Assembly: GCA_038049695.1 (NCBI GenBank)
Contig: CP142461.1
Coordinates: 31,441,001-31,505,000 of the forward strand
Source: Cinnamomum chago
Taxonomy: Eukaryota; Streptophyta; Magnoliopsida; Laurales; Lauraceae
Direction: 5' to 3'
DNA length: 64,000 nucleotides
Notes under the pieces: model-generated
The model's database searches: none
What the model was told of the DNA's origin: nothing
Seen by the model: the letters and a program-made list of their open reading frames with translations, nothing else
Part shown: positions 302-61,359 of the stretch, in pieces
How the letters are laid out: the number at the start of each line of letters is the position of its first letter
How positions within the stretch are numbered: position 1 is the first letter of the stretch
Translations under genes and position numbers: made by a program

Positions 302-3300
302 CCTCTCCCAGAAACTGTCGCACTTGTTGAAGACATTGTTGTTGAGTACGTCACAGATATGGTGAGTCTGATTATTCTTTACTTTTTTTAATCTTTAGTG
401 TATGCTTTATGACCGATTATGGATTTATGGAGTATAAGTGAAGTGGACACTGATACATGCATAGAATTCTTGTTCAGGAACTAGATACTGATTTCTTTAT
501 CATTTAGAAGTTTCTTTGATGAAAAAGATTGCACAAAGATGGAAGTTTGAAGAGATCTATTAGTACAATCATTCATCATATTACAACACATTTTTCCAGG
601 GATGAATATTTATGAAAAACAATTAGATATAGCTCCATAAGATTCTGATGTGATGTTTTCAGTTTGACATTATAAAAAATGTTTTTACCAATGTGTTACT
701 TATATGGTTGATCATAAATAAGTGATAGTGCCTCAACCCTTTATGCTACAGTCGCATGATTTTGTTCATTTATGACATTTACTTGTCATTGGCATATCAA
801 TAGGTGCATAAAGCCCAAGATATTGCTTCGAGAAGGGGAAAGCTTTTAACAGAGGACTTCTTATTTCTAATTCGCAAGGTAATTTATTTCAGAGCACCGC
901 TTACTTGCGTGATGATTGAATTCTCTTTTTATGTGATATTGTAACTTTGCTTGGATAAGATGTCTTTGATTCACTATTTTGGTAGGAATATACATGGGCG
1001 TTTGGGTTTCTTTGTGCTGTACTTGTATCATTAACATTTTCTGGAACCATTTCGATTAAGTTGGTGATTTCTTTGTGCTGTACATTTTATTCTTTGTTTC
1101 ACATTTCAAAAGGCATTCAATTTTTATTTCATACACAAGTCTTGACTTCTTAATCCACTGCTTTGAAAATTTATCATCTTAGGGGTTTTCTGATATTGCA
1201 CAGTTATTTATTTTAAAAAATGAATTCTTAAAAAAATGATTTTTCTAAAATTGGGGTTTATCAGAACATGTTTGGCATAATCATGTATAAAAACTAGTTT
1301 TAGGCTTTTAGCTGACAACTTGTTTTCTTTTGCTTATTTAGGATTGGAACAGATTGTGTTCCACTCACAAAACAAATATCCATGCTTCTCGAGAATTATT
1401 CTGCTTGGGCAGTTGGGATCAATTACAAAAGCAAAAGCTTAAGGCTTAAGCATTGATGTAGTCGCCCCACCTCAGTTTACCAGTACGCTGGTTACGTATA
1501 ACTTTGATTAGACAATTTAATCATTTGTAACAATTAAACAAGATGGCCCTTATTGATTACGGCCACAGAGTTAACCTTTTTTCACTGCTAACATGACTTG
1601 AACTGACAACCTCATGCTTGCGACAATGAATGCTTTCCGAAAGTTTGCCGAAGTAATTTAGACCAGCAGTTGCAGACTCCACCTTAGAGTACTGACGCTG
1701 CTTCAAAATAACTTTGAACAGATAATTCTAATCATTAGATAAATGGTTAGCAAAATAGGTTGTCCAATCAATTTAGTTCAACAATTAAATCCACCTTGAA
1801 TTACCCATGCCGCTCAACAATAACTTCTGCCAAATGATTTCCACAATCCGATAATTGTCAACCAAAATGAGTATCAATTAGAATAGCGAAAGCCTTGTCG
1901 TCAATTTAGAGCATCCATCATGTGGTCCTCATGGCGGTTTCCCTTGCTGCTCAAGAATAACTTTGATCAGATTCGTACCCTTCTGATGGGGGCAATTTTA
2001 TTTTAAATGCTTCCATCACTTTCTATTCCGTAAGTTAAAATAATACTTTCAATAAAGAAGGCTAAATGATTGACACTATTTGCGTAGTCTGAGAAACATT
2101 TCAAACCCGAAAGGATATATACACAGTCAGCCAACACACCATACTTGTGGCTTTTCAGCTTTTCCCAGTGTGACCTGTGAAATCATGACTACTAGGTTAA
2201 AATGTGGGTTCATCTTGTTCTCTGAATCTAACTTACATGAATATGCGCACGTGTATCAGTATCTCTAGTTTTCTGATTCAGATACTGGTTCATACTTTAT
2301 AGATGTACAACTGGCTCACTTTTTTAATTTCAATAATGTCTTAGCCACCACTGCTGCTATTGCTGTTGATATTATTGTTGTGTTTACCTGTTACTGTTAT
2401 TTTTTCCCCATGTTCCTTTGCACTGCTACCTTGACATATAATACATGGAGACTTCTATAGGGCTGGACTACTCACATATGGTCCATGGAGGACGTAGTAC
2501 TGATATGGATATGATATAAAAATGCCGTGCATAGGGCTGTAGTCTTATCCTACATTTTTCACAAATATTTTATTTTAGGGCTGTAGGAATATTGATTTGC
2601 TGTTTTTTTTTGCAACCAATGAATACACTATGAAATAGTACCTCATTTAAACCAATAAAAAAGACAATCAATACTTATTGAATATACTAGAATATCTTTA
2701 ATCCATTGCACACGTCATTGCCATCAAACCCTTATTACATAAATATATATATATATATATTAAATGATACATATATGATGCCTAGATACTTCATAATAGA
2801 CAATTTATTGTGTTATATCGTATCTAATACTTCACTATTTATGAGTAAAATCTGTGTCCCTCTCATATCGATAGTGTATCCCTGCCATGCTGTACCTCGG
2901 CACCATAGGTTATCCCATTATGATTTTTATTGAAATGGCCCATATGTATTCATACCATTAGATTGATCATGGCAAATTTATATTTTAAACATTTTTGTAT
3001 CAGTAACTGAAAATTATATTAAAGAAAGAATGGAACAGAACAATGAAGACCAAGACCAAACCCAACAAAGAATATGATCATTACTCTTATTTGTATGTGT
3101 TGTATTGCAAAAATACTGCAAAAAATATGGTGTTTTTTTTTTCCAAGCAACAATTTTAGTTTGATGGAATTGATCTTGTTTTGACACTTTTAGCTATTTT
3201 ATGTTGTTCATTGTTGTATTTATCTCTACAGTAGTATCAATAGTACTAGAATTCCCTTGTGTTGGAACTTGGAACACACAATGCCATTATCTATGCCATT

Positions 3301-6174
3301 GTTTTCTTCACTATTTCACACCTGAATTTATGCCACCGATATCCATATTTATAACACGGCACCATATGTTAACTGATAGTTGACCATTAAATAATAATAA
3401 TAATAATAATGACGACGTCGACAACCAAGACTATAATAATAGTTATCAGAATCCCAAATCCCGATTCGTCTCCGGAATTTTAAGCAAAATGATTCGTATC
3501 TATGCAACGAATCTTATTTACAAATGAATCTTAGAATTCAGGTATAAATATTACGATTTGATACTCATTTCATCGAATCTTACGATTCAAGCGATTCAGC
3601 TAAACGAGAATCTCTACAACCAGTAAGTTGATAATAATAATAATAATCTTTTACCTTTTTTTCTTTCTTTCTTTTAGCACTTTTTTATTTTTAATGGTTA
3701 TTTAGTAGTTAACGAAACCTCCTAAGATCTTTTTGCGGCTTTGATAAGGTTTTAAAGATGAATAAAGAACATGTATTTAACTAAAGCATTTGACTGTAAG
3801 TATGGTGCTTGTGTAAATTTTATTCTTTTTTTAATTTATTTTGGTTTTTTTCTTCATGAACACTTTCTTTAATTCAAGAGATATCCTACCATGTAAGATT
3901 GATGGTTTGATTTTTATATTTTGATTTAAAGATAATAAATATATATATTGATACTTTAAACTTATTTAACTATTGACACATCATGTATTTCATATATATA
4001 TGTGTGTGTGTGTGTGTCATGATATTCTTGATATGATTGTATGATAGACTTGTTATTACATTTATACTACTATTAATGGGAAAAATAGATGGTTATGAAT
4101 ATTTTTTTCTTTTTCTTTTAATTTTTAATTATTTTTTATATTTATTAGAAAAATAAAAAATCCTACGATTCTCGATTCAATTCATGGGTATGAACGATTT
4201 GCGATACGATTCCGATTTTGAAGACTATGGTACTAACTCCTATTAGAGTAAAATTTAAGTAAACCACTTAAGGGAAGAGCTTTTATTCTGAGTAGCATGA
4301 ATCTTTCTACGTTTTTCACCATTTTATAATATTAGGTAGCGTTTGGTTCGCGGTAATGAGGGTCGGAATGGAATGGTCATTCCAATGGAATGATCATTAC
4401 AACGTTTGGTTCGCAAAAAGTGGCGGAATGACCTATACTTCCGGAATCACCATTCCTTTATGTAGAGGAATGGCCATTCCACTGGCCATTCCATTCCTTT
4501 ATAAAATTTTCTTGAGACCAAAATGCCCTCCACCCTCCACCTTCCTCCTCCTAGTCGCCAGTTGGGAATGAGATGAAGGCCCTAGCCGTCACCGCCCCCC
4601 CACCCCAAAAAAAAAAAATATCATTTTTCTCTTTTCTTCTTTTTCTTCCTCCTCCCCTCTCTATTCTCTCTCTCCCCCCCTCTGTTGATTTCACTACTAA
4701 TTTAAGTGAATGGGTGAATCTCAGTTCATAAAATCATTCATGCCAACCAATTTATGGACAATCCAGAACAGAGAAGGTAACCCTTCCATGGAGGTGTTCA
4801 AGGAGACATGTAGCCACCGTAAAACATGGGGTCGCATGGCTAAACAGCACATCTCAATCATGCTCCATGGCCGCAGCACTTATCGCTTCAGTGGCTTACG
4901 TCTCGGCCACCACTATTCCAGGTGGGGACAATCAAAACATCGGCTTGCATTCGACACCTTTGCCATCGCTTCACTCGTTGCCCTGTGCTTCTCTGTCACT
5001 TCCCTAACCATGTTCTTATCCATCTTCACCACTAACTACACAGTCCAGGACTTTCCATAATCTACCAACGAAGCTCTTCATCTCAATTGGTGAATGGGTC
5101 TGGAGAGGGTTGAGATGGATCTGCGCAGAGAGAATGGGTCTGGAGATGGGTCTGGAGAGGGGGGAGGAGGAGGAGGGTATTTTGGTCCGTCTTATGTAAA
5201 TTTTATTCCATTCCGGGCATCATTCCAGCTTACCAAATGCAAGAACAGGAATAAGAATTCCATTACTGGATTGATTCTTCAGTCTAACCAAATGTTGGAA
5301 TGAAAATGACCATTCCTGCCTAAAATGACCATTCCAGACTCATTCCACTCTCCATTCCATTCCCACCTAAAACCATTCCAGCGAACCAAACGCTACCTTA
5401 GTGAGTGGTCTATCAATGACGTTCTCTTCAATCATCTATTCTACAACAAGCATCATGGCCCATCAAAATATTACAAGTCATTAATTTATACATTTTCAGC
5501 CATCCATGTCTGTTACTGGCTCTTGGCCCATTAAACAATTACAAGAAATGAATCAATTCATAAATTAACAAGTAATTAATCCCGCATAGGCCTTGCTTTG
5601 ATTAGAGTGAGATACAACTCTGTATCCAAAAAAAAAAGGTGTAAATGATTATTTTGAGCGGTTTAGATTCATTACAGTGAGCTCTACTATTTTTGTATTT
5701 TAATTATTCTCAAAGTTCTAATAAATTATCTTTAAATTTAATTGGTATTTTCAAATCTAAGATTTTTTATTTGGATATTATTAAGAAACTCTGAAATAAA
5801 TAAATATGTCTTAAATGATAAGTAAAAGAAATCAAGAAATATGAAAATACTATTGATGCCTCTAAAAGAATTCTAGCTTTGCTGCTGCTAGTTGATTATC
5901 GCTTGCCTCTCTAGAAGAAAATCTCGGCTCCGTCACTACATGCCTGTATCCACATGTGGGCACCATTGGTGTAATGCCATGATGTAAACCTTTTTACAGT
6001 TCTCATCATGTCTTCTGATTCATGAACATCCCTAATTTTTTAACTTCTCATTCACTGGACCAGGACTTGCCCAAACTCCATCGATGTACAGAACTGCTAT
6101 CAATGAATGAAGAGCTTAAACAAGCGAGGAAGGCCTTTGAAGTTGATGAAGAGAAGCTTGCAACTAATGATTGA
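302..6174 (+). CDS. TAF13: TAF13, TFIID subunit 13 (3' part, three coding exons)
   Basis: Partial gene; its 5' exons lie left of the window. Coding exons are 302-361, 804-878 and 6064-6174, each bounded by AG and GT and all in phase 0. They encode 81 residues: PLPETVALVEDIVVEYVTDM, then VHKAQDIASRRGKLL followed by TEDFLFLIRK, then DLPKLHRCTELLSMNEELKQ and ARKAFEVDEEKLATND, with stop TGA at 6172-6174. This matches the C-terminal half of the TFIID-18 kDa histone-fold domain of plant TAF13, including the LLTEDFLFLIRKD helix. TAF13 pairs with TAF11 through histone folds within the general transcription factor TFIID in the nucleus. The odd feature is the last intron (879-6063, about 5.2 kb), which is swollen by a Harbinger-type element and a GATTCG-rich repeat. 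The exon joins are seen in the sequence; the identity rests on recall of the family. Confidence 0.93.
879..4334 (+). other. TAF13 last intron, 5' part
   Basis: Non-coding. It begins with GTAATT after AAG and contains no ORF that I recognise. Between 1480 and 1970 there are four loosely similar phrases resembling GCTGCTCAA-AATAACTTTGA-CAG (near 1481, 1700, 1810 and 1950), perhaps an old tandem repeat. There is a TA run at 2748-2760 and an (AAT)n run near 3390-3410. The stretch from about 3430 to 4235 is a separate dispersed repeat. Confidence 0.6.
3430..4235. repeat. Dispersed GATTCG/GAATCTTACGATTC-rich repeat, copy 1
   Basis: This stretch is rich in GATTCGTATCTA, GAATCTTACGATTC and similar palindrome-like words, followed by a TTTTTCTTTCTTTCTTTT tract and a TAGTTAACGAAACCTCCTAA phrase. 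The same order of words recurs in the IDH intron at about 62605-62940 (GATTCGTATCTACACAATGA, then the T/C tract, then GATTAGCGAAACATCCTAA). Two copies in unrelated introns show it is a dispersed repeat. No TIR, LTR or coding sequence allows it to be classed. Confidence 0.6.
4335..5397. mobile_element. PIF/Harbinger-type non-autonomous element carrying a captured gene fragment
   Basis: The left end GGTAGCGTTTGGTTCGC (4335-4351) is the exact inverted complement of the right end (5381-5397). The element is flanked by TTA on both sides (4332-4334 and 5398-5400), the TWA target duplication typical of PIF/Harbinger. The ends are also packed with GGAATG/CATTCC words that pair with one another. There is no transposase ORF, so the element is non-autonomous. 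The middle (about 4710-5095) holds a broken ankyrin/PGG-type coding fragment that is unrelated to transposition. It sits inside the last intron of TAF13. Confidence 0.88.
4710..5095 (+). pseudogene. Captured, frame-broken PGG-domain fragment of a plant ankyrin-repeat membrane protein
   Basis: Read across changing frames, this stretch gives the order of features in plant ankyrin/PGG proteins. First is a linker, WTIQNREGNPSMEVFKET. After a frame change comes a first membrane helix with the family motif (WLNSTSQSCSMAAALIASVA, then TTIPGGDNQNIG). After another change comes a second helix region (FDTFAIASLVALCFSVTSL, then FLSIFTTNYTVQDF), and after a third change HNLPTKLFISIGEW. At least three frameshifts make it non-functional as written. 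The longest open stretch runs 4710-5060. The PGG family is known from membrane ankyrin proteins of the ACD6 type; a functional role for this copy is not supported. Confidence 0.8.
5398..6063 (+). other. TAF13 last intron, 3' part
   Basis: Non-coding AT-rich sequence ending in TTCACTGGACCAG at the acceptor of the last TAF13 exon. No further element is recognised. Confidence 0.6.
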
Positions 6175-35019: not shown

Positions 35020-36462
35020 TCAAGAACGATATCCAGAACTAGGGCGTTCATATGGCCCAGATCGGTCACGATTGTATCTGTCACCTCCAGATCCTGAACG
35101 GCCACCTCCATCCCTACTGCGTCCACTATAACGGTCCCCACCACGATCAGGACCATAGCGACTATTTCCACCGCCACCGCCACTGCCGCTGTACCTATCA
35201 CTCTTGCCACCATACCGATCCCCTCTGGTTCCCTGAGCAGATGGACACTCTCTTGCAAAATGTCCATGCTTACCACACTTGAAGCACTCTCCACCACCAG
35301 AACCACGTCCCCCACCGTAGTCACGATCACGGCCACCGCGATCACGACCACGGTCATAGTCACGATCATCACGATCTCTACCAGAGGATTGAGGCTGAGC
35401 TTTATCAACAGTGATTGAACGTCCATCCAGATTCATACCATCCATAGCACGTATGGCTTCATCCATGGCTTTCTCATCGTCAAAAGTGACAAACCCAAAT
35501 CCACGAGAGCGCCCAGAAATCCGGTCCACAACTACCTGCACAAGCCAAATAAACAAATACAATAAAGCAGCCAAAGACCAAACAATAGAAAGTAGAGCAG
35601 CAACAGTGCCTAATGTATAAAGAACTGTTACCAATGAAAAGAGCAGATACAAATCACATTTACGATTCTCATTAAAGATAAGGCTTTCTTTACATTCACC
35701 AAGATCAGGATCTTGAAACATACTTGAATGTTCACTTGAATAGATCAATAAAAGTAAACCTCAACCTAGACCCAAAAAAAAAACCACCAATGGCTAATGG
35801 TTGCTTAATCCGCAGTGGTCTTAGATGGTGAAGTCGGCATTAGAAAACTCATTAGTTGGGGCACTATTTATCTGCTCAATTCAACTACCAACACCTGGCT
35901 CATTAGTTCAGGCACCATGTATCTGCCCAAGTCAACCACCATCGGCTGGTCCATTAGTTCAGGCACTATTCATCTGCCCAAGTCAACCATCATTACCATT
36001 CTGACATACTGATTTGGGGAAGAAAAATAGAAGCAACCGGTGAAGTGCAATTTCAAATTTTTGCACTGCACTGAAGGCAGAATAAATAAGCATCTATTCC
36101 ACCAGAAACTATATTTAAAAAAAAATCCAATTTGGGATAAATCCAGTTGCAATCTAAACTGCTTGTCACATATACATACACGAGTGCCTGTCAAAAACAC
36201 ACACACATGAGCCCACGCACAAATATAGGAGCACTACAGTACAATTATCTAGTTATTTAAACTACATGTCTATTGTAAAGAAGGAAGCATCAGTAAAACA
36301 TACTATACTATTAATGACTAACAAAACATGTAATGAACCTCAAATGATCACCTTTGCCTCCGTAAGATTGCCAAACTTTTCAAATGCATTTTTCAGCGCT
36401 CTGTCAGAAGTTGACCAAGAAAGGCCCCCGATAAAACAGCGGTACTCTACTGATTCCGACAT
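35020..36462 (-). CDS. RZ1A: RZ-1A-type glycine-rich RNA-binding protein with zinc knuckle
   Basis: Two coding exons on the minus strand: 36352-36462 (37 codons, [16 protein letters not shown] start) and 35020-35535 (171 codons plus TGA). A GT-AG intron of 816 bases separates them. The protein has 208 residues: an RRM at about 7-83 with RNP2 CFIGGL (9-14) and RNP1 RGFGFVTF (48-55), an Arg/Asp/Gly-rich linker, a CCHC zinc knuckle with Cys121, Cys124, His129 and Cys134, and a Gly/Arg/Asp/Ser/Tyr-rich tail. This order is that of plant RZ-1A proteins (Arabidopsis At3g26420 type), nuclear RNA chaperones linked to cold response and splicing. The intron within the RRM, after ...LTEAK, is at the position conserved in plant GRPs. 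The sequence GTTGCAG-ATCAG just before the ATG suggests a 5'-UTR intron. Confidence 0.95.
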
Positions 36463-38880: not shown

Positions 38881-39084
38881 TAGAGTGATGCAGAACGGAT
38901 GACTCAAGTGTGGGGCCTAGCAAAGTAGTTTAGGAATTATTTTTAAATCACTTGTTATTTACGAATTAAGATAGTTTCTAATGTAATCTCTTTCCCAGTT
39001 GATTAGGTTTCTTAGCCATCAAGTTTGTTTCCTATTTATATTACATTGTAGAGATGAAATTCTGAGAATTGATTATTGGAACAT

Positions 39085-39660
39085 AGATCTATTGAGTTAT
39101 TGACGGGAAGAATCATTTGTTTCAAAAGATTTTTCATCTCAACCCATGTCTCAACAGGATCTATGTTTAGGTTCCTTTTCCTTCTCTTCTTTTGCAACTC
39201 GGCCCACATATTGTTGCATAATTGCAAAATCGAGTTGCTACCGAAGGTGACTTTATGGCCCTCCATCATTGGGTTGTGCACAAAAATATTTTCCACGCAC
39301 ACTAGCCAATCCATAAATTCATCTGGTTTCAGTTTTCCATCATATTTTGGAATCACGAGTTTAATTTCTAAACCTCTAACAACATTGTTCGCTGGTGGAT
39401 CTCATTAATTCCAAATATTTACTGCATCATCTCGGTTAACATCCACACGCCGATTTCTTTCCATTTTTTTTTTATTCTGGTATCCATCTTTAAAAGAGTT
39501 TCTTAAGAGTTGAGCAATCATTGTGGGCAATTGAGCAACATTTTCCGTTAACTCCGCAACAGTTCCAGTCAAGTCCTCCATGGTCATGAATGAAGATTCC
39601 ACGTATACCTTCTTATCAGCCACAATTATTTTTTTGTATGCAATCAAAATTGACTGACCT
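39085..39660 (-). pseudogene. Broken retrotransposon gag fragment
   Basis: On the minus strand GLEIKLVIPKYDGKLKPDEF and MDWLVCVENIF are followed by W-EL-KKRRKRN and WVEMKNLLKQMILP. This is the core of plant Gypsy gag proteins (IP-FDGKLQPDEF-DWL ... W-EMK-LLK--FLP). The upstream frame 39405-39647 supplies the preceding residues after a frame change. The frame runs into LTR sequence at about 39082, and no CCHC knuckle or pol follows. Confidence 0.75.
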
Positions 39661-60603: not shown

Positions 60604-60671
60604 AAACCCTAAACAAAACCAGAAGACAAAGACGAAAGAGAATCAGAAGACATATTTAGGGTTAGGGTTTT
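60604..60671 (+). promoter_or_regulatory. Telo-box-like motifs in the IDH leader
   Basis: AAACCCTAAAC near 60604 and TTTAGGGTTAGGGTTTTG at 60655-60672, the latter ending 3 bases before the ATG. AAACCCTA telo-boxes are known elements of promoters and leaders of actively expressed plant genes. Confidence 0.55.
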
Positions 60672-60675
60672 GAAA

Positions 60676-61206
60676 ATGGCAAGGCGAAGCCTCCCAATAC
60701 TCAAACACCTTCTGCGCAATCCCACCTCCTCCTCCTCTTCCTCTCTAGGGCTATGGTCGGGTTCCCGGTCGGTGACGTACATGCCCCGGCCCGGAGACGG
60801 CGCCCCGCGCGCCGTAACCCTGATCCCGGGCGACGGGATCGGGCCTCTGGTGACAGGCAGCGTCCGGCAGGTGATGGAGGCGATGCACGCGCCGGTCTAC
60901 TTCGAGTCGTACGACGTGCACGGCGACATGACGAAGGTGCCGGAGGAGGTGATCGAGTCGATCCGGAAGAACAAGGTGTGCCTGAAGGGCGGCCTCGCCA
61001 CGCCCCTCGGCGGTGGTGTCAGCTCCCTCAACGTGCAGCTCCGCAAGGAGCTCGACCTGTATGCCTCCCTCGTCCACTGCTTCAACCTCGACGGCCTCCC
61101 CACCCGCCACGAATGCGTTGACATTGTTGTTATCAGGGAGAACACGGAGGGCGAGTACTCCGGCCTCGAGCATGAGGTCGTACCCGGCGTGGTCGAGAGC
61201 CTCAAG
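60676..61206 (+). CDS. IDH1: NAD-dependent isocitrate dehydrogenase regulatory subunit, exon 1 (partial gene)
   Basis: The first 177 codons, from ATG 60676 (MARRSLPILK) to ...VVPGVVESLK, followed by donor GTAGTT. The rest lies beyond the right edge; the expected next residues were not found up to 64000. Residues 1-34 are a Ser/Arg-rich mitochondrial presequence. VTYMPRPGDGAPRAVTLIPG (33-52) and DGIGPLV begin the Rossmann-like core, with SSLNVQLRKELDLYASLV (116-133) and RENTEGEYSGLEHE (154-167). The ASLV-CFN form is that of plant regulatory subunits; catalytic subunits have ANVRPC. The enzyme oxidises isocitrate in the mitochondrial TCA cycle. The exon is very GC-rich compared with its AT-rich surroundings. 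IDH1, 2 or 3 cannot be told apart here. Confidence 0.93.
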
Positions 61207-61359
61207 GTAGTTTTGGTTTCCTAGGAAATTAGAATTTGTTCAGCCTAATTGTAGATAGATTACTATTAGATGCATATTTGGTGTTATTCGAACTTTCTTT
61301 CTGCATTTTGTGAATCATGAGATTTGATAGTAAAGTGGGTTTGTTGATGTAGTATCAAA

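Follow-up and report, generated by a model that had tools for sequence, protein, structure and literature searches.

The window analyzed here, a stretch of 64,000 nucleotides (64 kb) from the genome of Cinnamomum chago, contains the gene for TAF13, of which three exon pieces were recognized on the forward strand, at positions 302 to 361 (part of an exon), 804 to 878, and 6064 to 6174 (the last exon, with its stop). Joined, the three pieces matched TFIID subunit 13 at an E value of 8.9e-19 and PF02269 at 1.4e-21; taken singly, the second and third matched PF02269 below the cut-off (E 0.0099 and 0.0026, respectively). A mobile element of 1063 bp occupies positions 4335 to 5397, in what is predicted to be a TAF13 intron (879 to 6063), and it holds a piece of a PGG-domain gene that lies on the same (+) strand as TAF13. 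Other open reading frames (ORFs) in the window, judged by eye, resemble an isocitrate dehydrogenase subunit (60613 to 61224), a glycine-rich RRM/zinc-knuckle protein (35020 to 35760), and a piece of a retroelement gag (39036 to 39401).

The element is bounded by exact 17-bp terminal inverted repeats, at 4335 to 4351 (+) and 5381 to 5397 (-), which match at 17/17 positions and abut copies of a TTA target-site duplication at 4332 to 4334 and 5398 to 5400. With up to three mismatches allowed, the terminal 17-mer occurs at only two sites in the 64 kb, both of them ends of the element, where 0.04 would be expected by chance. Inverted pairs of 12 bases that lie 100 to 5000 bp apart and are flanked by matching TTA or TAA numbered two in the window, this element included; the other pair, 4.9 kb wide, is probably due to chance. 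The ends of the element itself are not a chance pairing, since sister copies share the same ends. The GC content of the element is 0.46, against 0.26 and 0.32 in its flanks. BLAST matches to sister copies define a left arm at 4335 to 4683 (+) and a right arm at 5151 to 5397 (-). Between them lie the PGG cargo, at 4680 to 5092, and a filler delimited by sister comparison, at 5093 to 5150; positions 5092 to 5137 are 98% identical to part of one sister, L016.

The cargo, which is on the + strand and sense to TAF13, was delimited by its DNA match to a PGG locus, L009. It comprises about 24 bp of a donor intron edge, ending at a putative splice site, followed by the greater part of a decayed PGG exon, in which four coding pieces can be followed on the + strand. 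The first (4752 to 4817) lies upstream of the Pfam domain match and was recognized by its DNA match to the donor exon, with no Pfam match for 4731 to 4823 alone. The second (4825 to 4950) contains the motif IPGGDNQN, and the unbroken frame from 4822 to 4980 scored 33.8 bits (E 3.2e-8) with PF13962, for which the cut-off is 24.1. The third (4944 to 5054) carries a second hydrophobic stretch, for which 4938 to 5060 gave PF13962 at E 0.0029, below the curated cut-off alone, and the fourth (5056 to 5091), past the third frame change, was again placed by DNA match to the donor exon, with no Pfam match for 5026 to 5091. The reading joined over all three frame changes matched PF13962 at E 1.9e-13, covering profile positions 3 to 91 of 116. 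Control peptides, one reversed and five shuffled, matched nothing in Pfam up to E 0.05, and a genome-wide PF13962 search recovered the cargo itself at 30.5 bits. Compared with its nearest relative, the cargo has its frame broken by deletions of 2, 22, and 2 bp, and a deletion of about 21 bp is frame-neutral. Changes private to the cargo, at 13/120, 10/122, and 17/111 for codon positions 1, 2, and 3, fit weak or no constraint, in a count that also includes the donors' own stem changes.

The genome holds at least 152 PGG matches, many of them clustered at C2:10.4-11.4 Mb; other large clusters occur at C11:1.0-1.6 Mb, C5:7.3-8.1 Mb, and C7:11.4-12.4 Mb. Among 31 PGG loci drawn from these matches and compared with the cargo, the best relatives were L009 (340/422 identical positions), L067 (335/425), and L064 (328/425), corresponding to 77 to 81% identity. 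The L009 alignment spans 4680 to 5075, with a further 20/20 at 5073 to 5092. In a tree of 12 rows, the cargo and the 11 best PGG loci, the cargo grouped at 100/100 with these three exons, all of which are on contig C2; the cargo branch measured 0.13, and the order within the group was unsettled. The three exons are open frames of 198 (L009), 199 (L067), and 196 (L064) amino acids, and the L009 frame matched PGG at E 5.2e-27. Judged by these comparisons of sequence, the cargo derives from the L009, L067, and L064 group, and a donor closer still may exist beyond the 31 loci compared. Because the cargo begins about 24 bp ahead of the predicted splice acceptor, it was genomic DNA that would have been captured. 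The donor had been described in the original prediction as an ankyrin, ACD6-like gene, which is still conjecture: Pfam found no ankyrin repeats in the 4.5 kb adjoining the nearest donor exon (one + frame) or in L047, a 9.5-kb stretch upstream of that exon (three + frames), and a motif scan near L009 on the + strand showed none. An ankyrin exon farther away is possible.

Sister copies were sought in the plant's own genome (1.06 Gb), where 40 scored candidates of 409 gave 74 matches, consisting of arm pieces at 72 to 91% identity and a single cargo-spanning match at 81%. A subset of the matched sites, 37 in all, was fetched; both ends were found by BLAST in 27 of them, and the remaining 10 were left out of later counts. 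The two-ended sisters carry the same 17-mer ends with few changes. A perfect 3-bp duplication flanks 21 of the 27 and none was seen in 6, and TTA or TAA was the duplicated sequence in 18. In an all-against-all BLAST of 28 elements, the arms were common to nearly all, in a set chosen by similarity to the 4335-5397 element and so biased toward shared arms, and most middles were common to none, one, or two others. Median best-piece identity to the TAF13 element was 80% for left arms and 88% for right arms. After two of the 27 sisters were dropped for too short a middle, 26 middles fell into 17 clusters; four multi-member clusters hold 13 middles, and the largest is linked in part by about 100 bp of filler. 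The PGG cargo was the sole member of its cluster among the copies examined. The own-genome search for sisters did not report L067 and L064, both relatives of the donor, and a second element with PGG cargo may likewise lie beyond the scored part of the candidates. Left-arm matches ended at 4528 to 4573 in 19/27 sisters, at 4677 to 4683 in 6/27, and earlier in 2/27, and colinear right-arm matches began at 5142 to 5176 in all 27, a clustering that may be due in part to BLAST halting at simple sequence. The tracts at these arm ends are pyrimidine and purine rich. The left junction has a run of 13 bases that is also present in L012, L032, and L040, within sequence common to those three; its reading as arm or microhomology was dropped.

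Some sisters share a middle at 84 to 93% identity, namely L023, L029, and L036; L011 and L021; and L024 and L045. Shared middles of this kind indicate that elements multiplied together with their middles. The common middle of the last pair has long open frames (L024:657-1463, 269 amino acids; L045:620-1408, 263 amino acids), proline/serine-rich by eye and of no confident family. These comparisons bear out much of the original prediction, which had placed a Harbinger-type element inside TAF13 and had read its interior as a captured, recognizable PGG domain with at least three frameshifts. The joined exons, the exact inverted ends and TTA duplication, the single-frame PF13962 match above cut-off, and the three frame-breaking deletions all agree with it; three intact C2 exons formed the closest group among the 31 PGG loci compared, and the compared sisters have the same arms with other middles. 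Neither outcome that the prediction had named as refuting it, a lack of any PGG-family match or sisters with an element-derived interior, was borne out.

Host-derived sequence was also recognized in other members of the family. We scanned 148 of 319 sister ORFs of at least 40 amino acids, i.e., those of at least 64, which came from 24 of the 27 sisters, with none from L033, L038, or L039. The best Pfam matches were dUTPase (E 2.5e-19) and IRX15 (E 2.6e-10), along with weaker ones. The IRX15 fragment is the cargo of L027 (C3:88.04 Mb) and is 82% identical to C6:79854793-79855356, which lies inside an open frame of 284 amino acids with a full IRX15 profile match (E 1.3e-78), an open, donor-like gene at L079:1485-2336. 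The same IRX15 cargo occurs at the same places in an element on C9 (L082, C9:45.56 Mb), first matched at 84%. There a 6-kb stretch was read and both arms were found in order, flanked by TTA at either end; positions 1 to 409 of L027 match it at 83% and positions 436 to 1247 at 84%, the two matches being separated by an insert of about 1.4 kb. Two elements with one cargo at the same junctions indicate that a loaded element multiplied. In L016 (positions 751 to 1131; C6:67.46 Mb), dUTPase residues 85 to 157 are followed by residues 25 to 45, in shuffled order, the second piece matching weakly at 8.1 bits. Two cargoes were traced to donors, PGG and the IRX15 of L027. A putative RRM cargo in L043 was dropped (Pfam E 0.003, below the cut-off; PDB E 0.014). 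Weak matches to Podoplanin, Atrophin-1, CCD48, PRP38_assoc, and Lys-AminoMut_A were not counted, nor was a DCD match that sits on the dUTPase ORF.

Assignment to PIF/Harbinger rests on the target duplication and the structure of the ends, since neither a transposase nor an autonomous partner came to light: Pfam found no transposase in 158 ORFs, comprising 10 in the element (at least 37 amino acids) and the 148 in sisters, a result to be expected of any non-autonomous copy. The 10 in the element, taken from either strand and apart from the PGG frames, matched nothing in Pfam up to E 1. The TTA/TTA duplication here, the TTA or TAA of most two-ended sisters, and the short terminal inverted repeats common to the family are PIF/Harbinger traits. 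Host gene DNA between terminal repeats (PGG here, IRX15-like in L027), the lack of an own transposase in the ORFs scanned, and conserved ends around a less conserved middle are traits of Pack-TYPE elements. Relatives were also sought in prokaryote genomes, where none of 398 pattern stretches was confirmed. MULEs make a 9-bp target duplication; the present element, with its 3-bp TTA duplication, differs from Pack-MULEs and belongs to another superfamily. It is like them in being a non-autonomous carrier of gene fragments (PMC8903248). Pack-PIFs are known from rice and maize, with PIF duplications that are mostly TTA or TAA (PMC8903248). As described there, they are likewise non-autonomous, have PIF-type ends (15 nucleotides are marked in Zm-Pack-PIF cluster #18), mostly show TTA/TAA duplications, and hold host gene fragments between common ends, with middles that differ and some cargoes that multiplied. 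Unlike in those elements, the family arms here are long, 200 to 350 bp, and the cargoes are PGG, IRX15-like, and dUTPase; the cluster #18 fragments measure 163 and 58 bp at 97 to 98% identity, against about 0.4 to 0.5 kb at 77 to 82% here. Grapevine PIF elements with captured exons and introns are described in PMC2528002, and Pifvine-3 shares the superfamily, the mostly TTA/TAA duplications, and captures common to several copies, but it is described with transposase and ORF1 regions, neither of which was found here in the ORFs scanned. Gene capture had been called less well described for Harbinger MITEs; the capture stands, but it has already been reported for PIF/Harbinger in rice, maize, and grapevine (PMC8903248, PMC2528002). 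We consider it very probable that 4335 to 5397 is a non-autonomous PIF/Harbinger Pack-TYPE (Pack-PIF) element carrying about 0.4 kb of captured PGG-gene DNA, with repair copying the favored route, that has since decayed in the TAF13 intron. Pack-PIF is an already described kind of element, to which this case adds a member.

The arms would be the mobile part, recognized and moved by a transposase made elsewhere. An ancestor presumably acquired about 0.4 kb of genomic DNA between them, comprising an intron edge and the greater part of a PGG exon, from a source gene close to the three PGG genes that contig C2 carries today. Insertion of the element at a TTA of the TAF13 intron would have followed, and there the cargo degenerated into a piece of pseudogene. 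We favor uptake by copying of foreign DNA during repair (template switching) because of the intron content, the reordered pieces, and the different middles at similar junctions. A less than even but appreciable chance is given to fusion, in which two neighboring short elements came to transpose as a single unit with the cargo enclosed between them, a model put forward for Pack-CACTA and Pack-TYPE elements (PMC8903248). Each arm, at about 200 to 350 bp, is MITE-sized, and both arms show weak TIR-like cores at their inner ends (4514 and 5178), in the orientation expected under fusion. These cores, however, match at 9/13 and 8/13, which is chance level (0.755 cores of at least 9 expected per orientation), and the internal TIR copies that stand out most, 12/13 at 4402 and 10/13 at 5228, are oriented like the outer ends and not inwards. 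The shuffled dUTPase pieces in L016 also fit template switching better. Independent insertion of a PGG pseudogene, processed or solo, into an older element would suit a PGG cargo that is single among the copies examined, but we regard it as extremely unlikely: the cargo contains a donor intron edge, no poly(A) tract or target duplication of its own was seen by eye at the junctions, and sisters hold other cargoes at the same place.

A further reading is that the cargo acts. RNA from the element might silence PGG genes, given that the arms can pair and a read-through transcript could, on modeling, fold back into a hairpin and enter small-RNA pathways. Pairing of 4335-4534 with 5169-5397 was predicted at -140.6 kcal/mol, against -72.4 +/- 6.2 kcal/mol for 100 shuffles, and the fold of the whole element at -354.1 against -282.5 +/- 7.5 for 30 shuffles; PGG matches in the genome number at least 152. 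Yet in the predicted fold the arms pair with 32 of the 413 cargo bases, 180 are paired to other bases of the cargo, and the identity of the cargo to its nearest relatives is low for small-RNA targeting. Strand bears on the matter as well. Transcription through TAF13 had been suggested to yield antisense RNA against ankyrin/PGG genes, but TAF13 and the PGG piece share the + strand, so read-through would give sense PGG RNA, and antisense regulation was rejected on strand. Silencing by element RNA is accordingly judged very improbable. The element is most likely an inert, decaying passenger: a cargo that is broken, single among the copies examined, sense in direction, and within an intron would have no present function. 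On its own, the finding leaves the biology of TAF13 and of immunity unchanged.

At the level of the family, we put forward tentatively, and as a rather unlikely reading, that these elements are specialized for capture, with arms ending at fixed purine/pyrimidine tracts (left, 4528 to 4573 or 4677 to 4683; right, 5142 to 5176) into which foreign DNA was repeatedly copied, so that most members came to hold different, sometimes reordered host sequence. If this were true, template switching would recur at the tracts, and gene shuffling in the genome would be fed steadily by the family. Among PIF/Harbinger elements that have captured genes, the present one is clear-cut and its donor group has been traced; since its family holds many middles, comparing junctions inside a single genome could be used to study how such elements take up host DNA.
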